Shown here in pieces: positions 49,829 to 63,935 of a DNA stretch of 64,000 bases. A program made the translations under genes and the position numbers. The stretch spans positions 310,001 to 374,000 of the forward strand of contig NZ_LVEG02000005.1 in assembly GCF_001614315.2 (NCBI RefSeq). The letters run 5' to 3'. Source of the stretch: Halofilum ochraceum. Its GTDB lineage: Bacteria > Pseudomonadota > Gammaproteobacteria > XJ16 > Halofilaceae. Positions within the stretch are counted from its first letter, which is position 1. Each line of letters starts with the position of its first letter. Under the pieces are notes generated by a model. That model was given only the letters and a program-made list of their open reading frames with translations, was not told where the DNA came from and ran no database searches.

Positions 49829-49861
49829 CGGAATGCTCTCTTGTGCCCGGGCAGCCCAGGG

Positions 49862-50121
49862 CTGTTCACACTTCCCGCGGTCGCCGCGTTGCGGCCCCCG
49901 ATGCGGGCCCCGCAAGGCGCGAGAAGGGAGTGTAGCGTCACTACACGACCGACGAGCAACGCAGCGCGGTGCGCATCGCGGGCCGCAACCCTTCGGGGCG
50001 GGGCCTGTGTGCCGCAATGCGGCGTTGCGCCTCGCTCACGTAGGACGCGCTACGCTCACTCGGCGCGCCTTGCCTTGCAGCACACAGGCCCCGCCGCGGC
50101 GACCGCGGGAAGTGTGAACAG
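49862..50121. repeat. 260-bp palindromic element with perfect 27-bp terminal inverted repeats
   Basis: The left end at 49862-49888 (begins ctgttcacacttcccgcggt) and the right end at 50095-50121 are perfect reverse complements over 27 bp. Nested inside are a perfect 16-bp pair (49997-50012 with 50080-50095), a pair of 18 bp with one mismatch (gttgcggcccccgatgcg near 49888, complement near 49972), and a short palindrome gtgtag-cgtca-ctacac (49930-49946). Small frames across it code only Arg/Ala-rich peptides and are not genes. It lies in the carA upstream region, after the mgtE stop codon. Confidence 0.85.
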
Positions 50122-50187
50122 GCCCTAGCCACGGGCGGGCGAATTTTACTGTAGCGGGACCGCCACGTCCACGGGCACTGCGCCGCC
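50122..50187. other. Non-coding remainder between mgtE and carA
   Basis: Together with the palindromic element and the carA leader this completes the 417-bp gap 49771-50187. On the minus strand it holds an A/T-rich patch, TACAGTAAAAT (50153-50143), which could supply a -10 box for carA; no matching -35 box is clear. If used, the whole 260-bp element would lie in the carA 5' leader. No terminator with a T-run follows mgtE. Confidence 0.4.
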
Positions 50188-51498
50188 TTACAGCAGCACG
50201 GCGAAGAGCGTCGCGATGCCGAGGAACGAGAAGAACCCGGCGACGTCGGTCACCGTCGTCAGGATGATGGAGGACGCCGTGGCCGGGTCCTGCCCCAGCC
50301 GCCGCAGCACGATCGGCACCAGGGCGCCGGCCAGACCCGCAGCCACCATCGACAGCACCATGGAAACGGCGATGATCAGCGACAGCCCCCAGGATCCGCT
50401 CCAGACATACACGCCCAGCGCCGTGGTTGCCGCGACCGCGAGTCCGTTGATCGATCCGACCCGTAACTCCTTGAGCACGACCAGCATCGAATGCCGGGCC
50501 GTGATCTCACGCAGCGCCAGACCGCGCATCGTGACCGCAAGCGCCTGCGCGCCGGCGTTCCCCGACTGCCCGGCGACCACCGGCAGCAGGACCGCCAGCG
50601 CGGTGTACTGGGCGATCGTATGCTCGAACAGCCCGACCACGGATGCGGCAAGGAACGCGGTCAGGAGATTGATCTGCAACCATGGCAAACGTTTGCGCAC
50701 CGCGAACCACGAGGCCGACAGCGCACGCTCATCACGACTCGCGCCCACCATCGCCTGGATATCGCCGGCCGCATCGACCTGTACCGCCGCAAGCAGGCCC
50801 GCTTCGGGAACCGTGCCGATCAGGCGCCCCGCCGCATCGACCACGGGCAGGTCGGTGAAACGACTGTGCCCCAGCACTTCGACCAGTTCTTCGCGCGGAC
50901 TCAGCGCGTCCACCCACGGACCGATCGGTTCCGCCAGGTCGGCCAATGGCGTTTCAAGCCGCGCCAATGCGAGTGCCTGGATCGTTACGCGCCCGCACGG
51001 GATGTGGTCGTCATCGACCAGAAACAGCGTGTGCGAGTCGTACACGCTGAGCGCGCGCAGACGATCGGAGGCCTCCGCCACGGTCATGTCGCCGCGGAAG
51101 AACCCCAGCCGTGGAGACATCAGGCGCCCGGCGCAGTCCGGCGGATATTCGAGCAGTTCGCGCAGTTCCCCGGCGATGCCCGGATCCACCGACGCCAGCC
51201 AGTGGGCCCGGCGTTGCGGAGCCATCTGCGAAAGCAGTGCGCAGGCGACCGTGGGTTCCAGTTCCGCGAGCAGCGCGCTCGCCCGATCCGCATCCAGCGC
51301 CTCGAGCAAGCGCTCGGCGGCGAACGGACTCAGCCGTTCCCAGACCGGGCGCAGGATATCGACGGCGTGCGCCTGCAGGCTCGCGACCCCTTCATCGGGC
51401 GCCATGCGTTCAAGCGTCCGGGCCGCCTCTCCGGGGTATTCGCGGAGATAGCGGGCCGTCAGCGCGCGACGGGCGGTCAACGGATCAATACGGTCCAT
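50188..51498 (-). CDS. mgtE: Magnesium transporter MgtE
   Basis: Mg2+ channel of the inner membrane, 436 residues. An N-terminal superhelical MgtE_N domain (about 1-125) with helical repeats is followed by AGRLMSP, a CBS pair (about 135-250), a plug helix and five membrane helices. The pore region has VAGQSGNAGAQALAVTMRGLALREI and the last helices contain DPATASSIILTTVTDVAGFFSFLG with the conserved Asp. The ATG at 51498 has ggggagg 6 nt before it. It overlaps the preceding MgtE_N/CBS gene by 14 bp and is the last gene of the NRDE-tamAB-truD chain. Confidence 0.94.
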   Translation of the reverse strand: MDRIDPLTARRALTARYLREYPGEAARTLERMAPDEGVASLQAHAVDILRPVWERLSPFAAERLLEALDADRASALLAELEPTVACALLSQMAPQRRAHWLASVDPGIAGELRELLEYPPDCAGRLMSPRLGFFRGDMTVAEASDRLRALSVYDSHTLFLVDDDHIPCGRVTIQALALARLETPLADLAEPIGPWVDALSPREELVEVLGHSRFTDLPVVDAAGRLIGTVPEAGLLAAVQVDAAGDIQAMVGASRDERALSASWFAVRKRLPWLQINLLTAFLAASVVGLFEHTIAQYTALAVLLPVVAGQSGNAGAQALAVTMRGLALREITARHSMLVVLKELRVGSINGLAVAATTALGVYVWSGSWGLSLIIAVSMVLSMVAAGLAGALVPIVLRRLGQDPATASSIILTTVTDVAGFFSFLGIATLFAVLL

Positions 51499-52318
51499 GA
51501 CGGCCTCCCCGACCCGCGACCAGTCCCGCGAGCGTATGTCCCAGGCCACGTGCGGCAGCCGCATACGCATGCACCAGCACGCCACCGGGTCCCGCTCCCG
51601 CCGAGATTTCCGCCACGGGTTCCCGGCGCGCCGCCAGGATCCGGGCCAGGGTGATACACCCAACGAGACGCCGGGCGCTGTCCACGACCGGACGCTCGGG
51701 CCAGCCTTCCCAGCCTTCCACGGGATCGACCTGCGTGAGCGGCAGATCCGCCGCCAGAGGTGGGCAGTCACGGTCCACCAGGGCATCGATCGACCGCTCC
51801 CCGGCGCTGGCGAGCAGTGCCGCCAGCGGGACGACGCCTACCGGGCGTTCGCGCTCGTCCACCACATGGACCTGCACCGGACCCGGCGTCGCCCGCACCA
51901 GCGCGATTGCCTCGGACACCGTCGAATCGGCACGGGCCGTGGCCGTCTCCGCGTGCATGTGGGCCCCCACGAGCGTCGCGGCAAAGCGCAGCTGGCGCCG
52001 CAGCGCCCGCGCGCGTCGGGTGGGCACCTGCTCGAGGATCGCCTCACGCGCCTCCGGGGCGATCGCCCGCAGGAAATAAGGACAGCGCTGGGCGGGGATG
52101 GCCTCGATCAGCGCGGCCGCGCGCGCCGGTTCCATCGCCGCGAGCGCACGGCCGGCCCGCCATGGCGCCATCGCCGCGAGCGGCTCGGCGGCCAGGCGCA
52201 CCGGCACCGTCGTGAGGAATGCCCCCACCGCCGCCGGCTCGAGCTGTTCGAGGACGCGGGCGGCGTCCACGGGGCGCGTGTCGAGGTACGCCAGTGTCAG
52301 CGCGTCGGGATCAGTCAT
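51485..52318 (-). CDS. Free-standing MgtE_N/CBS protein without a membrane domain
   Basis: A 277-residue soluble protein resembling the cytosolic part of the MgtE encoded right after it. ALTLAYLDTRPVDAARVLEQLEP aligns with ALTARYLREYPGEAARTLERMAP of MgtE, and the helical repeat region and a CBS-like pair (STVSEAIALVRATPGPVQVHVVDERERPVGV and VDSARRLVGCITLARILAARR) follow in the same order. There are no membrane helices; the C-terminus ends in an Ala/Gly-rich stretch. It overlaps mgtE by 14 bp and the MscS-like gene by 8 bp. A role as regulator or partner of MgtE is an inference. Confidence 0.75.
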   Translation of the reverse strand: MTDPDALTLAYLDTRPVDAARVLEQLEPAAVGAFLTTVPVRLAAEPLAAMAPWRAGRALAAMEPARAAALIEAIPAQRCPYFLRAIAPEAREAILEQVPTRRARALRRQLRFAATLVGAHMHAETATARADSTVSEAIALVRATPGPVQVHVVDERERPVGVVPLAALLASAGERSIDALVDRDCPPLAADLPLTQVDPVEGWEGWPERPVVDSARRLVGCITLARILAARREPVAEISAGAGPGGVLVHAYAAAARGLGHTLAGLVAGRGGRHGPY

Positions 52319-53144
52319 CGCTGGTCGGCGCCAACAGCACCACCGGGCGTTCATGGAAGGCGCGTGCCGGGATGATCACCCGGCCCTCGCCGGTCGCGAG
52401 GATGACGCTGGTCGCCGTCATTTCGGTCACTTCGCCCTCGACCTCGCCGATGCGTATGCGCTGGTGCAGCTGGCAGTGTTCCTGCAGCCCCTGGGCACCG
52501 ATGAGATTGCGCACCACGTCAACGGCACCGAGCGCGAACGCCAGTGTCAGAGCACCCCCCACCGAGGCCGCGGCCACCACGATCAGGGCCACCGGCAGGG
52601 TCATATCGAGCCCCATCTGCCCGATACCCAGCACGACCGCCAGCGTCAGCACGGTCGCCTGCACGCCACGCCCGAGCAGGTGGCCGCGGGCGCCGCCCAG
52701 CGGGGTCGCGGCGGCCGTCGTCAGTTGCCCGAGCAGGATGCTGCCCGCGATCCCGATCACGATGATGAGCCCGCCGGCGAGCAGCGCTGGCAGGAAACCC
52801 GCAAGCCGCGCCAGCCACTCACTGACCGCGTCGAGTTGCAGCGCCGCCGCGATCCCGACCAGAAACAGGAATACCACCACCCAGAATGCAAGATCCGCGA
52901 TTACCCGCGCCACGGTGGGCGTCAATCCGAACAATGAGAACGGGCGGGCGGGCATGCGCCCGATCAGGCGGTTGAGTGCCCTGCAGGAGCGCAGCACCAG
53001 CAGCCGCGCAAAGCGCGCCACCAGCCACCCGAGCAGCCCCAGGATCAGCGCGGCCACCAGGTTGGGCAGAAAACCGGCAATCTCGCCCAGGGCGCGGCCC
53101 GCCGATACCGCCGGCTGTTCCAGCCAGGATGCTTCTTCACTCAT
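52311..53144 (-). CDS. Small MscS-like membrane protein (conserved TM-helix type)
   Basis: A 277-residue inner-membrane protein with about four to five helices. The first (LPNLVAALILGLLGWLVARFARLLV) has the pattern of the conserved TM-helix repeat found in MscS relatives. The segment VGGALTLAFALGAVDVVRNLIGA resembles the pore helix, followed by a short beta domain (IRIGEVEGEVTEMTATSVILATGEGRVIIPARAF). The chain ends there, so the large C-terminal vestibule domain of MscS is absent. The start overlaps the truD stop (ATGA), and it precedes the MgtE_N/CBS gene. Gating behaviour cannot be judged from sequence. Confidence 0.78.
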   Translation of the reverse strand: MSEEASWLEQPAVSAGRALGEIAGFLPNLVAALILGLLGWLVARFARLLVLRSCRALNRLIGRMPARPFSLFGLTPTVARVIADLAFWVVVFLFLVGIAAALQLDAVSEWLARLAGFLPALLAGGLIIVIGIAGSILLGQLTTAAATPLGGARGHLLGRGVQATVLTLAVVLGIGQMGLDMTLPVALIVVAAASVGGALTLAFALGAVDVVRNLIGAQGLQEHCQLHQRIRIGEVEGEVTEMTATSVILATGEGRVIIPARAFHERPVVLLAPTSDD

Positions 53145-54229
53145 TCCGTTTCTCCGATTGGTCCGCGGCGGCCTGCTGCCAAAGGCCCGGTGGGCGCTGA
53201 GCGGTTTGCGCCCGCCCGACTGACGTCGACGGCGGTCACCGCCTCATCGAGCAGACTGGTCGCGAAAATACCGCGGCCCAAGGTAAAACACAGTTCGAGA
53301 TCCGCGCCGTGCCAGGCCCAGGCGAGATCCGGCGCCACCGCGCGCAGGGCGCGTCGACGCGCCTGCATGGCGATCCGCTCCAGGCCTTCCCGCAGCTCGG
53401 ACTCATCCGCCAGCCACGCCCGTTCCCGCTCCGCGGCCGCCAACCCGACCGGCTGTTCCCCGATCCCCCAGAGCGGCCCGGTCACGTCCAGGTCGAAGCG
53501 ATCATGCCGGCTTTCGATATCGCCCTCGTCCCCACGGTACTCGAACACCGAGTTCGTACCCGCCAGCATCAAGGCATCGCCTGGCGCCGGTCGGATCCAG
53601 CTGCCATCACGGACCCGGGCATCGAGGACAAGGTTGAACAGCCAGCTGCGCGCTGCCGACAGATGGATCCCACGCGCACGCTTGATCGCATCCGGGGCCA
53701 GCAGCCGGCGCGCCCGGCGCAGGTTCTCGCCGCCGTGGCCAAAGCGCTGGGGGCCGAAATAGTTGGGGAAACCGCGGTCACGCACGGCCGCCAGGCGTTC
53801 GTCGATCGTGGCGCGATCGCCCTCGACCGCACGCAGGCGCAGGGCAAACCGGTTCGCCCGGTGGCTGCCGGTACGCAGCTTGCGGTTATGCCGGACGGCG
53901 TGCTCCACGACGCCCACGGTCGGGTCGACGTCCGACCACTCCGGCTCCGCCCGCCCGGGGAGATGGACCGAGAACCACTGCCCGGTATCCGCGTGGCGAT
54001 CCTTCATACCGCTGAACCCGACGTCCCGGCGGCGAACGCCCGCGAACCGGGCCAGCGCCTGCGCGACGTCCTCGGTATTGGTCCCACGCTTGCGCAACCA
54101 AAGCCACGCATGCTCACCGCCGCCACCGGGCTCGAAGCCGAGCACCTCGTCGACCCGGAAATCGGCCGCCTCGGTGCGCAGATCGCCGTGCCCACCGGGA
54201 CCGCCCCAGGCCCGCGCGTACTCCATCAT
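53141..54229 (-). CDS. truD: tRNA pseudouridine-13 synthase
   Basis: Modifies U13 of tRNAGlu. The 362-residue protein has the N-terminal EAADFRVDEVLGFEPGGGGEHAWL, the catalytic Asp77 in GFSGMKDRHADTGQWFSV and the block FPNYFGPQRFGHGGENLRRA, all specific for TruD. An ATG-ATG pair overlaps the tamB stop; either Met (54229 or 54226) may be used. It lies between tamB and the MscS-like gene. Confidence 0.94.
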   Translation of the reverse strand: MMEYARAWGGPGGHGDLRTEAADFRVDEVLGFEPGGGGEHAWLWLRKRGTNTEDVAQALARFAGVRRRDVGFSGMKDRHADTGQWFSVHLPGRAEPEWSDVDPTVGVVEHAVRHNRKLRTGSHRANRFALRLRAVEGDRATIDERLAAVRDRGFPNYFGPQRFGHGGENLRRARRLLAPDAIKRARGIHLSAARSWLFNLVLDARVRDGSWIRPAPGDALMLAGTNSVFEYRGDEGDIESRHDRFDLDVTGPLWGIGEQPVGLAAAERERAWLADESELREGLERIAMQARRRALRAVAPDLAWAWHGADLELCFTLGRGIFATSLLDEAVTAVDVSRAGANRSAPTGPLAAGRRGPIGETE

Positions 54230-57200
54230 GGTTCGATCCCTCCATCGGTCTCGATACTGTAAAGCAGATCCGCGCTGGCGGCCGCACCGCTGCGGGCCTC
54301 CAGCGACCACCGACGGGTCAGTTCGTAACGCATGCGTACGCTGTTCGCCTGCTCGGCGAGACCGATGCCATAGCCGACATAAAGACGCGGCGAGAGGTAG
54401 CGCCCGAGCACGAGCGAGGCGCCGTCGCTCTCGCCCACCTCGCCGCGGTCGACACTCACTTCCTGGATGCCGAGTTTACCCGCGATCGCCTGCCCCTGTT
54501 CCGAGGTCGCGAGCGCCGCCGCGGCAGCCGCCATGGTGCTGCGGTCGCTGCCAGAGCTCTCGCCGAGCGGGACACCCGCGATCAGATAGGAAAGCTGCTG
54601 GGACTCGGGCAGCGGGGGTTCCGAAAACAGCGTCGCTCGTGGTTCCCGCAGGGTGCCGCGGACGTTGACACCGACGACCACATCGCGCGGCCGGCGCACC
54701 GCGCGCACATCGAGCCCGGGGTCGGCCACCGGGCCGCCATCGAACAGCACGCGCCCGCGCTCGATTTCCAGCGACTGGCGGTAGATCGTGTATGTGCCCT
54801 CCTCGACCCGCAGTTCGCCGGTCGCGGTGGTCAGTTGGCCCGGTCGCTCGCGCACGTCGATGTTGCCGCCGAGACGCCCATCGAGCCCGAACGCATCCAC
54901 GCGCACGTCCTCTCCAAGATCGACGCCCACGTCCGCGAGCACCTGCCAGCCCGCGGCCGTTTCCTTTGCTTCACCGTTCTCGCCCACGATCACGGCGTCC
55001 GGACTCGTCTGTACCGCACCGGAAATATCCCGCGGTTCGATCCGGGCGTGCGGTATCGCCACGCTGCCATTGACCTCGATGCGGCGTCCTTCCACCCGCC
55101 AGTTCAGATCCGGCGACACGTCCAGGCCCAGCTCCGCCGTATCCACGGCCGCGAAAGAGGTCCCGCTGATCCGGCCCTCGCCGGACCAGGCACCGGCGTC
55201 GCCGCGGCGCAGATCGATCAGCGCCTCCATCTGGCCCTCGCCGGAGCGCCCCCCGAGCCGGACCCGGAATCCGCTGCCGACCGTTTCCAGGTCGAGGTCG
55301 AGCTCCGTCATCGCGATCCCGAGCGGGATGACGGTGACCCGGCCCTCCGCGAGCTCCGCACCCCCCGTCAGGCGCGGGTCCGCAAGTGTCCCCCCCAGCC
55401 CGACATCGGCGTTCAGCTGGCCTTCGACACGGCCGATCGCCGGCACCACGGCCGCGATCAGGCTGAGATCGTCGATCCGGGCCTGGACACGCCCGCTCAG
55501 CGCGGCGGCCTCGTTGCGCTCGATCCCGACCGTCGCCGCCAGGCGGCCCCCGTCCGACAGCGGCAACCGGATGCGCCCATCCAGCCGCTCGGGCGCCAGC
55601 TGCGCCTCCACGCTGCCGGACTCCCACGCCAGGAGTGTCCGCGTTTCGTCGTCGACCGGCCCCATCACACGCCCACCGGTGATCCCGAGACGGGCATCAC
55701 CGGTTACTGGACCTGCCCCGCCCTGCAGGCGCGCCTGCAGTTCGAGTTCGCCCTCATATTCCAGTTCTTCCGGCCCGAACCCGCCGATCAGTGCCAGCGG
55801 TACCGTGTCCGCCTGGATACGCGCCGACCAGTCTTCGGGCGTGCCCTGGCCCGTCAGGCACAGCCTTGCGGGCGCCTGCAGGAGACAGAGGTCTTCAAGG
55901 GCGCCACGCCCGTCGACCCAGCGCAGCGGCGCGGGCTCCGCCAGCGTCCAGGCCGTCCGGCCGGCGGGACGCAGCTGCAGCCCGGTCAAACGCCCCCGCC
56001 AGTCGACATCCTCAAGGGCACCGGCAGCCGTCAGATCCACCTCACCCCGCGGTCCGGCCGCAGCGATCTCCAGACGATGATCGCCGGGCCGGCCGGCCAG
56101 TGATGCCGACACCCGCTCCAGCGACTCCTCGCCGACCTCGACACCGCTCAACGACAGGTCGACGCTCGAATCACGATCATCCGCGAGAACGGCATCGGCG
56201 TTCAGCGCGAGCGTGTCGATCCGCAGCGTCGCCCATTCCAGGGCCGCGCCCTCCATCCGTGTCCTGATCGATGGTGCCGCCGGCGTGCCGCCGATCTGGC
56301 CGCTACCCGAGAGCCGCCCGGCACCGACCCCGGTCAACGCGCGCACATCCGGGATCGCGACCGACCAGTCGATCGCGAGTCGTTCCCCGGCCCGGCCGCT
56401 CGCTTCGAGGCGTGCATCGCCGGCAGCCAGGCGCAGGCGCGGCACTTCCAGTGTGCCGTCCGCATAGCGCAACTCCGCCGCGCCATCCAACGGACGCCCA
56501 TCCAGTTCCCCCTCGAACCGATCCAGTGTGACCTCCGCCGACACGCCGGTCTCGTCCCAGCGCGCGTCGGCCTCGAGGCCGGCGGCGAGGCGGCCGGCGA
56601 TGGCCGCGCCGAAGCGCTCCGGATCGACATCGCTCAGGTCGGCGCGGATGCGCGCGTTCCCCGGTGCCTGCCAGCGTACCTGACCATCCGCCGCGAGCCG
56701 CGCGCCGCCCCAGTCGATCCGGGCCGTGAAACGGTCAAGACCATCGACGTCACCACCGCCCTGGAGTTCGACCGCCGCCGGCTCATCCGGGCCGATATCC
56801 GGCAAAGAGACCCGCGCGCGGCCGTCGAGTTGATAGCCGTCCAGGGTCCCTTCGAGCGTCATACGGCCTTCCGTGCTGCGCGCCGTCGGCGCCCCGGTGA
56901 TCGGCCACTGCAGGGCTTGCCAATCCAGCGTCGCGTCGAATCGGGGCTTCGTCCCCGCATAGCCCACGCTGCCCTTGAGCGACGCCATCGTCTCGGCCTG
57001 CTCGACCGGGCGGATCGCAAGCTCCGCGATGCGCAGGGATTCCGTATCGGCCTCCACGTCGAGGCGGCCACTGTAGGGTCCGCCAAGGACCGCCCCGAGA
57101 CCAAAATCGCCACGCACCGAGACCGTATCCAGTGTCCCCTCCAGTGCGAGGTCGGCACTGGCCTCCAGTTCGGGGGCGGTAGAGAGCCACTGCGCGGGCC

Positions 57201-60631: not shown

Positions 60632-61171
60632 CTAGGCGGTCTCCGCCGGAATCGCCCAATGCCACGGTTCGTAGACAATGCCGTGCGCGTTTTCGCGTGG
60701 ATAGGATAGCGCGAAACCGAATCGCTCGGCGTTACGCGTAAGCCATCTGAAGGCGTCGGTCTGCTCGAACGCCTCGGTCAGCGGCGGTACCCCCGGTACA
60801 CCCAGATCAACGGCCCGGCCCCCGTGATGCTCCGAAAACCCCGGCGCGGCATTGACCGCGAGGATGTCCTCGATCGCCTCACCGCGCGCGAGTTTGCGCT
60901 CGATCAGGCCACGCTGGTAATCGAGGCTGCGCCATGCCGAGACGAGAACGAGACGGATCCCGTCCCCTTCCGCCGCCGCCTCCATCGAGGCCCAGCGGGC
61001 GGCGGCATACGGCTCGAGCCAGTGCCGCCTATCGGTCCGCCCGGGTGAGACCTCGACCAGCGTCTCCGGTTCCCGCACCAGCGGCAGCCCCGTGCGCCGG
61101 GCGTAGTCCGCCGGCACCCCGAGTTCCCGGTGGAGTGCCGCGACCCGATCGGCAAACGAGTCGGTACTCAT
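60632..61171 (-). CDS. M15-family (VanY-like) D,D-carboxypeptidase
   Basis: A 179-residue zinc peptidase of the VanY/DacB M15B type, acting on peptidoglycan peptides. The metal motif parts are SEHHGGRAVDLG (His and Asp ligands) and the C-terminal IVYEPWHWAIP (catalytic Glu and His ligand), with LVSAWRSLDYQRGLI before them. No signal peptide is visible, so it is either cytoplasmic or exported in a non-classical way. The ATG at 61171 overlaps the stop codon of the preceding 58-residue membrane protein gene (ATGA). Confidence 0.87.
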   Translation of the reverse strand: MSTDSFADRVAALHRELGVPADYARRTGLPLVREPETLVEVSPGRTDRRHWLEPYAAARWASMEAAAEGDGIRLVLVSAWRSLDYQRGLIERKLARGEAIEDILAVNAAPGFSEHHGGRAVDLGVPGVPPLTEAFEQTDAFRWLTRNAERFGFALSYPRENAHGIVYEPWHWAIPAETA

Positions 61172-61344
61172 TCGCTCAGGAACAGCGCCTGCAACATCGC
61201 CGAAACCAGCAGCGCCCCGAATACCCCCGCGCCCGCGAACAGCGCGGTACGCAGGACCCGCAGGTGCAGCTCCGCGCGCGGCGTGCGCAGCGCGCCCCAG
61301 AGGCAGATGCCCGCCAGAATCCCGAGTGCCAGAAAGGTCCGCAC
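61168..61344 (-). CDS. Small 58-residue membrane protein coupled to the M15 peptidase
   Basis: I do not recognise a family. The frame starts at GTG (61344), with ggag 7 nt before it, and its TGA stop overlaps the peptidase ATG. The protein reads MRTFLALGILAGICLWGALR, a basic turn TPRAELHLRVLRT, then ALFAGAGVFGALLVSAMLQ and a short end ALFLSE: two membrane helices joined by a short basic loop. The good ribosome-binding site and exact overlap argue for a real gene. It might anchor the peptidase at the membrane. Confidence 0.6.
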   Translation of the reverse strand: MRTFLALGILAGICLWGALRTPRAELHLRVLRTALFAGAGVFGALLVSAMLQALFLSE

Positions 61345-61425
61345 GGCTTTTCTCCATTCAGCGAAGGACGCGGCTACCGCCCGCGGCCGTTACCCGGTGA
61401 TCGTAACCGGTGGTGGCCAACGCGG

Positions 61426-62736
61426 TCAGCCAAGCGTCTCGACGCGGATCCGCTGCACTTTGCCGATGATCGAATCAAGCGCCTCGAACTGCGCGATGGC
61501 CTCGTTGATCTGTTTCTCCACCACCCGGCGCGTGAGCATGATCAACGGCACCGTCGTCTCGCCCGGTCCGGGTTCCTTCTGCAGGATCGCCTCGATGGAG
61601 ATGTCGAGATCACCCATGATGCGCGAAACCTGGGCCATCACGCCGGGGCGGTCCGCAGCCTGCAGGCGCAGGTAATACGCGGTCTCGATATCCTCGACGG
61701 GCATGACGGGGAGATCCGTGATCTGGTCCGGCTTGAAGGCGAGGTGCGGCACACGGTTCTCCGGGTCTCCCGTCAGCGTGCGCACGACGTCGACGATATC
61801 CGCCACCACCGCGGAGGCGGTCGGTTCCGCACCGGCGCCGGCGCCGTAGTACAGCGTCGGCCCCAGCGCATCGGCGTGCACCACCACGGCGTTCATCACC
61901 CCGTCGACACTGGCGAGCAGCCGGCGCTCGGGGATCAGGGTCGGATGTACCCGCAGCTCGACATTCCCGTTGGTCCGGCGCGCGATCGCCAGGTGTTTGA
62001 TCCGATAACCCAATTCGTCCGCATACGCGACATCGTCGCGTGTCACACCGCTGATTCCCTCCATGTACACGTGGTCGTACTGCAGCGGAATCCCGAACGC
62101 GATGGAACCGAGAATGGTCAGTTTGTGCGCGGCGTCGATGCCGTCGACATCGAATGCCGGATCGGCCTCCGCATAGCCGAGGCGCTGCGCCTCCGCCAGC
62201 ACGTCGGCGAACTCGCGGTCGTGATCGCGCATCTCGGTGAGGATGAAGTTGCCGGTGCCGTTCACGATCCCGGCGAGCCAACGGATATGGTTGCCCGCAA
62301 GCCCCTCGCGGATCGATTTGATGATCGGGATCCCGCCGGCGACCGCGGCCTCGAAGGCCACCATGACACCCTTGCGCTGGGCCGCCGCGAAGATCTCGTT
62401 GCCATTCAGCGCAATCAACGCCTTGTTGGCGGTGACGACGTGCTTGCCGTTCTCGATCGCCCGCATGACCAGTTCGAACGCGGGCTGCTGGCCACCGATC
62501 AGTTCGACGATGACCTCCACGTCCGGGTCGTCCACGACGATCCGGGGATCTTCCGAGAGCCGGATATCTTGGGTGGCCAGTCCCTCGAGACGCGAGCGCG
62601 TGCGGACCGAGGCGTGACTGACGACGATTCCGCGCCCCGCGCGGCGCGCGATCTCATCGGCGTTGCGCTGCAAGACGGTCAGTGTGCCGCTGCCCACGGT
62701 ACCGAGGCCGAGGAGGCCGATTTTCACGGGATTCAC
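61426..62736 (-). CDS. hom: Homoserine dehydrogenase
   Basis: Reduces aspartate semialdehyde to homoserine for threonine, methionine and isoleucine. The 436-residue protein has an N-terminal Rossmann domain ([17 protein letters not shown]), the catalytic core with [30 protein letters not shown] and [11 protein letters not shown], and Lys in [14 protein letters not shown]-terminal ACT domain (about 350-430) suggests threonine feedback. The GTG start overlaps the alaC stop (GTGA at 62733-62736). Confidence 0.96.
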
Positions 62737-63935
62737 GAATCACTCTCCTGAAAGACGTTGTCCTGACGAAACATATTGCGGATGCCCCGCAGCGCCTGGC
62801 GCGTGCGATGCTCGTTCTCGATCAGCGCAAGGCGCACATGGTCGTCGCCGTACTGGCCGAAGCCGATCCCCGGCGATACGGCCACCTTCGCCTCGGCGAG
62901 CAGCTTCTTGGCGAACTCCAGCGACCCCATATCCCGATACGCCGCCGGGATCGGGGCCCAGACGAACATGGTCGCGCGCGGCTTCTCGACCGGCCACCCG
63001 AGCGCATTGAGGCCATCGCACAGCGCATCGCGACGCCGTTGATACATCGCGCGGATATCGTCCACGCAGGACTGGTCGCTCTCGAGCGCGTGAATCGCGG
63101 CCACCTGGATCGGCGTGAACATGCCGTAGTCGAGGTAGGACTTGATCCGCGCGAGGGCGGCGATCAGGTCCGGGTTGCCGCAGACGAAGCCCACACGCCA
63201 TCCCGGCATGTTGTAGGTCTTGGACAGCGAATACGTCTCGACGGCGATTTCGCGCGCGCCCGGCACCTGCAGGATCGACGGGGCCCTGTAGCCGTCGAAC
63301 ACGATCTCCGCGTAGGCGATGTCGTGCACGACCCAGATACCGTATTCCCGGGCCATCGCGATCACGCGCTCGAAAAATTCGAGGTCCGCGCAGTGCGCCG
63401 TCGGATTACCCGGGAAATTCAGGACCAGCATCTTGGGCCGCGGCCAGGAATCGGTGATCGCCTTTTCCAGTTCCGCGAAGAAATCGACGTCGGGCGTCAG
63501 CGGTACGTGCCGGATGTCGGCGCCGGAGATCACGAAACCGTAGGGATGGATCGGATAGGCCGGATTCGGCACCAGCACGGCATCGCCGGGACCGGTGGTC
63601 GCGAGCGCCAGATGCGCGAGGCCTTCCTTGGAGCCGATCGTGACGATCGCCTCGGTCTCCGGATCCAGTTCGACATCGAATCGTTCCTGATACCAGCGGG
63701 TGATCGCCCGGCGCAGGCGGGGAATGCCGCGGGAGACCGAGTACCGATGGGTGTCGCCGCGCTGCGAGGCCTCGTTGAGCTTGTCCACGATATGCTGCGG
63801 CGTCGGCTGGTCCGGATTGCCCATGCCGAAGTCGACGATATCCTCGCCGCGCGCCCGGGCCGCCGCCTTCAGATCATTGACGATATTGAAGACGTACGGC
63901 GGTAACCGTTCGATACGGGGAAACTGTTTTTCCAC
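62733..63935 (-). CDS. alaC: Alanine-forming aminotransferase (AlaC type)
   Basis: PLP-dependent class I/II aminotransferase, 400 residues, that makes alanine from pyruvate with glutamate as donor. Visible are [79 protein letters not shown] and the PLP Lys in [15 protein letters not shown]. The start is GTG, with a ggag 11 nt upstream. It is paired with hom; this alaC-hom (-thrC) order is common in proteobacteria, and the third gene, if any, is not here. Confidence 0.93.

Follow-up and report, generated by a model that had tools for sequence, protein, structure and literature searches.

A widespread gene triplet places a divergent MgtE beside a detached gate-like protein and a CmpX-type MscS-like protein

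MgtE is the standard model of a channel that is closed by the ion it carries. In the 64,000-nucleotide stretch of the Halofilum ochraceum genome analyzed here (contig NZ_LVEG02000005.1; the window), an mgtE gene is preceded by one gene for a soluble protein resembling the MgtE gate and another for an MscS-like membrane protein. This raises the question as to what controls an MgtE that is encoded in such company. A first-pass annotation of the window had proposed that the three genes form a dedicated, co-translated system. In the open-access literature, we found no MgtE-MscS operon, MgtE regulatory subunit, or link between MgtE and CmpX.

The locus and its three proteins

The open reading frame coordinates agree with the annotated arrangement, in which the three genes follow one another in tandem with overlaps of 8 and 14 bp (Table 1). 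The order on the minus strand is tamA, tamB, truD, mscS-like, soluble MgtE_N-CBS, and mgtE, followed by carA and carB, the last two identified from their translations. The truD gene overlaps the mscS-like gene by 4 bp (53141-53144) and is a local neighbor outside the conserved module.

Table 1. Positions of the triplet genes, their overlaps, and the adjoining truD gene within the window.
Feature	Position	Strand	Length	Remark
truD	53141-54310	-		immediately upstream of mscS-like gene; start codon uncertain
MscS-like (CmpX-type) membrane protein	52311-53144	-	277 aa	
Overlap, mscS stop / soluble-gene start	52311-52318	-	8 bp	
Soluble MgtE_N + CBS-pair protein	51485-52318	-	277 aa	
Overlap, soluble-gene stop / mgtE start	51485-51498	-	14 bp	
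MgtE, triplet subfamily	50188-51498	-	436 aa	

Between mgtE and carA lies a stretch of about 270 bp (49859-50124) with four nested or interleaved inverted repeats, the outer arms of which are 38 nt long and 89% complementary. Parts of this stretch are repeated at several places elsewhere in the genome, which marks it as a dispersed element. No Mg2+ riboswitch was found near the operon; the single Rfam match in the whole window is a tRNA. Elsewhere in the window, a 605-aa open frame on the plus strand (60934-62751) has no Pfam match, is mostly antisense to another open reading frame, and may be spurious. The 3.64-Mb H. ochraceum genome also encodes an ordinary MgtE (contig C18), CorA, and two CNNM genes, so the triplet is not its sole Mg2+ system.

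The soluble protein matches Pfam MgtE_N (4e-11) and CBS (6e-7) without the transmembrane MgtE domain, which agrees with its annotation as a repeat of the MgtE_N and CBS parts of MgtE lacking a membrane domain. It is 31% identical to the neighboring MgtE across 232 residues. Its AlphaFold2 model (pLDDT 91.4) consists of an MgtE cytosolic domain and an extra C-terminal helix (residues 244 to 269) that is moderately hydrophobic and poorly conserved. The top PDB matches of this model are MgtE cytosolic domains.

The MscS-like protein of the window matches MS_channel_1st_1 but has no MS_channel_3rd domain; its MscS beta-domain match falls just under the Pfam cut-off, whereas that of the protein at locus L100 exceeds it. 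The AlphaFold2 model (pLDDT 93.5) has five long helices and ends after the beta-domain, in keeping with the annotated lack of a vestibule. In a Foldseek search, the last part of the model (pore-lining helix and beta-domain) matched MscS and YnaI. The last transmembrane helix and beta-domain are thus shared with the MscS family (Escherichia coli MscS and YnaI, T. cruzi MscS), while the triplet protein differs in having five long helices per subunit, in lacking the C-terminal vestibule, and in being co-inherited with a Mg2+ channel. Its homology to MscS suggests that the protein may sense membrane tension.

Conservation and descent of the gene order

Using a threshold of E <= 1e-70 for close MgtE relatives, we identified a triplet-type MgtE in 26 of 369 genomes of the class Gammaproteobacteria. 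The soluble gene lies directly upstream in all 25 of the genomes with continuous contigs; in G137 it is truncated by a contig end, and in the 26th genome (G156) the soluble gene and mgtE sit at the ends of two different contigs. The MscS-like gene comes next upstream wherever the contig extends far enough (25/25), including one genome (G301) with a histone-deacetylase-family gene between the MscS-like and soluble genes. In a 27th genome (G248, locus L066, G248:C2:663500-670500), mgtE appears to be broken across frames, next to soluble and MscS-like genes that seem intact.

A wider scan covered about 85,000 species' genomes and yielded 80 loci. The search pattern was built on the MgtE alignment because the soluble family offers no sufficiently conserved stretch. 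Every within-clade locus with sufficient flank (59/59) retains the complete triplet; another 6 are cut by contig ends, and the remaining 15 are solo MgtEs, namely, 14 sisters outside the clade and its nearest relative, L137. The triplet order occurs in Pseudomonadota (alpha, beta, gamma, and Mariprofundus), Nitrospinota, Nitrospirota, Acidobacteriota, Gemmatimonadota, Bacteroidota, Myxococcota, and Binatota, at least eight phyla in all, though most records are metagenome bins and any one phylum label could be mistaken. Named strains carrying it are Nisaea denitrificans, Oceanibacterium hippocampi, Zooshikella harenae, Marinobacterium nitratireducens, Paraglaciecola hydrolytica, Bowmanella dokdonensis, and Mariprofundus sp. 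KV.

Short overlaps or gaps separate the genes in nearly all triplets, with start/stop spacings mostly between -23 and +13 bp. Departures from the standard layout include L104, in which the MscS-like gene is on the opposite strand, and L127, in which 2.4 kb separates the soluble gene from mgtE. None of the wide-scan loci contains a natural fusion joining two of the three proteins. The triplet is kept far beyond near relatives, and the proposal of a dedicated, co-translated three-gene system is borne out by an order common to so many phyla.

Could the arrangement nevertheless reflect chance adjacency or local duplication? Two genomes of the same genus have no match to the soluble gene, the triplet-type MgtE, or the MscS-like protein, as might be expected of a fortuitous arrangement. 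An order kept across at least eight phyla is not due to chance, however, and the soluble proteins form one group (tree support, 95) rather than a series of repeated local copies, which rules out a local tandem duplication as the origin of the soluble gene. We consider this explanation almost certainly wrong.

Phylogenetic analysis of the MgtE transmembrane region places all 85 triplet MgtEs on one side of a single branch (SH-aLRT 98, quick method). Their nearest neighbor is the solo MgtE L137, assigned to Myxococcota, followed by solo representatives from Elusimicrobiota, Omnitrophota, Planctomycetota, and others. Phyla are intermixed in this tree, which suggests that the unit has spread laterally. 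In the MscS-like tree, nine CmpX-type proteins from outside the triplet cluster together (96), separate from the triplet proteins. Here the group "other" requires two changes, the second of which we read as L131_b, a copy adjoining a soluble gene. All three triplet proteins are co-inherited. Their pairwise distances correlate at rho 0.46 to 0.58, compared with 0.52 for the two halves of MgtE and less than 0.22 for shuffled pairings.

Pore and sensor residues of the triplet MgtE

The triplet MgtE has the same parts as Thermus thermophilus MgtE (PDB 2YVX/2ZY9/5X9H): MgtE_N, a CBS pair, a plug region, and a transmembrane pore domain. In the window protein, the MgtE_N, CBS, and MgtE matches are all above the Pfam cut-offs, and a TIGR00400 score of 220.5 against a cut-off of 232.75 identifies it as a divergent member of the family. 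The PX6GN motif is present (P306 VVAGQS GN), as is the pore aspartate (D418, equivalent to Thermus D432), which is kept in 85/85 triplet MgtEs. On the strength of this homology, the triplet MgtE probably conducts Mg2+. The gate residues N424/P425 are S/I in the triplet, unlike in Thermus, but the position of P425 is also occupied by residues other than proline in ordinary MgtEs of the class.

To compare sensor residues, we mapped the cytosolic Mg2+ ligands E59, D91, D95, D226, D247, D250, E258, and D259 (PMC5882242) and the ATP-site residues Y170, R187, D188, and F227 (PMC5529423), taking the Thermus reference sequence from alignments. The equivalents of D259 and F227 are, respectively, the only cytosolic Mg2+ ligand and the only ATP-site residue kept in the window MgtE. 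The same holds broadly for the subfamily, which, in contrast to the Thermus channel, has largely lost the Mg2-Mg7 ligands and the ATP residues and is accompanied by two partner genes. Among the 85 triplet MgtEs, the Mg2+ carboxylates are found at E59 in 7, D91 in 1, D95 in 2, D226 in 4 (54 have K or R instead), and E258 in 7; only D259 is common (66/85). Y170, R187 (mostly Q), and F227 are mostly lost.

Ordinary MgtEs of the class, ten of which were compared, including the one on contig C18 of H. ochraceum, have an acid at E59, D91, D95, D226, D247, and D250 in 10/10 cases. They lack the ATP site, whereas the solo sisters of the triplet clade have it, with Y170, R187, D188, and F/Y227 present in 14 to 15 of 15, and the three other than D188 in all 15. 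The solo sisters also keep E258 (13/15) and D259 (14/15), but are already without D91, D226, and D247. Since they too lack most of the N/CBS Mg2+ sites, these sites began to be lost before the triplet arose, which leaves E258 and the ATP residues as the only losses that fall on the triplet branch. Judging from these residues, Mg2+ sensing through the known sites is unlikely in the triplet. Carboxylates are still conserved in the triplet MgtE at positions equivalent to Thermus 139, 216, 217, 220, and 223, leaving room for another ligand or for noncanonical sensing.

These comparisons bear directly on the first-pass annotation's suggestion of mixed dimers between the soluble protein and MgtE, here taken to sense Mg2+ or nucleotide or to compete for them. 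The soluble protein does match the MgtE cytosolic domain in fold and in the order of its domains, and one of the carboxylates conserved in the triplet MgtE, that at position 139, is conserved in it as well. Against this, the alignment revealed none of the known Mg2+ or ATP ligand residues to be consistently kept among the soluble proteins, and the triplet MgtE itself has lost nearly all of them. Sensing or competition by the soluble protein through the known sites was thus not borne out, and we regard such ligand-sensing dimers as improbable.

CmpX relatives, neighboring genes, and control of the gate

The MscS-like protein of the triplet is related to Pseudomonas CmpX. In P. aeruginosa, cmaX is described as homologous to CorA, and cmaX-cfrX-cmpX as co-transcribed (PMC7641640). 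As in the triplet, a Mg2+ channel homologue and a CmpX-type MscS-like protein with the same Pfam domains share an operon, but the channel homologue belongs to the CorA family, a soluble MgtE_N-CBS protein is missing, and the triplet MscS-like proteins cluster apart from CmpX-like ones. With MgtE accompanying it in the triplet and CorA accompanying CmpX, one branch of MscS-like proteins is tied to two unrelated families of Mg2+ channel homologues.

Several loci touch on this relationship. L065 (G163:C13:35500-42500) carries corA, a CmpX-like gene, an ECF sigma factor gene, and oprF; the product of its CmpX-like gene is a relative of the triplet MscS-like protein. This layout is that of P. aeruginosa cmaX-cfrX-cmpX-sigX, after which oprF is the next gene. 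Loci L094 (447-2259) and L114 (1172-2134) each have an additional MscS-like gene, of the CmpX type, immediately upstream of the complete triplet; at L094, an ECF sigma factor gene precedes it.

Other genes recur nearby. CNNM is a family linked to Mg2+ efflux, and CNNM/CorB-type genes occur within a few kilobases of 13 triplets (L044, L075, L091, L095, L100, L106, L112, L115, L119, L126, L128, L130, and L144), three of which are close Binatia relatives. With about 1.4 CNNM copies per genome in the class, this recurrence is well above that expected by chance from copy number. CNNM/CorB (CorC) proteins are, like MgtE, CBS-regulated Mg2+ membrane proteins whose genes often adjoin the triplet; they differ in having an unrelated transmembrane domain and are no fixed member of it. 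RimB/RimK/AstE-type genes are found near 14 triplets. RimK-type ligase genes lie beside the triplet at L063, L081, L086, L089, L094, L101, L109, L116, L122, L128, and L136, spanning several phyla and often accompanied by a RimB-type protease gene and an AstE/aspartoacylase-type gene. A tie between the RimB-type neighbors and hypo-osmotic survival was considered and rejected, as published work assigns that phenotype to secreted Rlo homologues and found no effect of deleting rimB. In the window itself, the triplet is flanked by tamAB-truD and carAB.

A pore of the Mg2+ type from which the known sensors are gone is most simply read as one under partner control. We give about an even chance to the reading that the three genes encode one dedicated module, whose MgtE would conduct Mg2+ but no longer be closed by cytosolic Mg2+ or ATP, its gate being set instead by the partner proteins. 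In such a module, the MgtE gate would answer to these partners, with the soluble MgtE_N-CBS protein most likely serving as a regulatory subunit packed on the cytosolic domain of MgtE and the CmpX-type protein perhaps reporting membrane tension or osmotic state. A mixed dimer of the soluble protein and MgtE is plausible, as is a link to membrane tension, both of which the first-pass annotation had raised. That the soluble protein connects to the MscS-like protein is suggested by the added helix at its C terminus and by the unvarying order of the genes. A physical complex, a role for this helix, and tension as the signal are our inferences. The most specific form of the proposal is a Mg2+ channel complex gated by tension or osmolarity, with the MscS-like protein as membrane sensor and the detached gate protein as the link through which it would open or shut the sensorless MgtE pore. 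This form is tentative, and we consider it possible rather than probable.

Genes can also stay together through co-regulation alone. The three proteins might then act in parallel without forming a complex, for example, to retain or re-import Mg2+ after an osmotic downshift, and the soluble protein would sense something else altogether. The recurrence of CNNM and RimB/RimK/AstE-type genes nearby fits this account, as does the lack of a contact signal in a mutual-information analysis of co-variation over 74 pairs, although that analysis had little power: its partner maxima were no higher than with shuffled pairs, and signal within chains was nearly absent too. Contact is favored, however, by the persistence of the MscS-soluble-MgtE order and of start/stop coupling over eight phyla and through lateral spread, and by the homology of the soluble protein to its neighbor's gate. 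On balance, a co-regulated operon without a complex seems unlikely to us.

It is also conceivable that the target of the soluble protein is the MscS-like protein and not MgtE, the detached gate closing or tethering a CmpX-type protein that has no vestibule of its own. The absence of MS_channel_3rd, the adjacency and overlap of the two genes, and the correlated distances of their products (rho 0.54) would all suit such an arrangement. Yet the CmpX-like protein of L065, which stands outside any triplet, also lacks the MS_channel_3rd vestibule and has no soluble MgtE_N-CBS neighbor, while every triplet-type MgtE on a complete contig has the soluble gene. We therefore judge this alternative to be quite unlikely, and return to MgtE as the partner whose gate the soluble protein would set.

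Taken together, the triplet points to an undescribed control of magnesium flow, possibly through membrane tension. It defines an old, widely shared MgtE subfamily that has kept the pore and lost the known sensors, and that is found with a second, free-standing gate and a relative of mechanosensitive channels. The system can be tested in cultured marine hosts, among them Paraglaciecola hydrolytica and Nisaea denitrificans. If the complex is real, bacteria would have a Mg2+ channel controlled by regulatory subunits, possibly one that ties membrane tension directly to Mg2+ flow, and there would be a possible molecular explanation for why CmpX is co-transcribed with a CorA-type channel in Pseudomonas.
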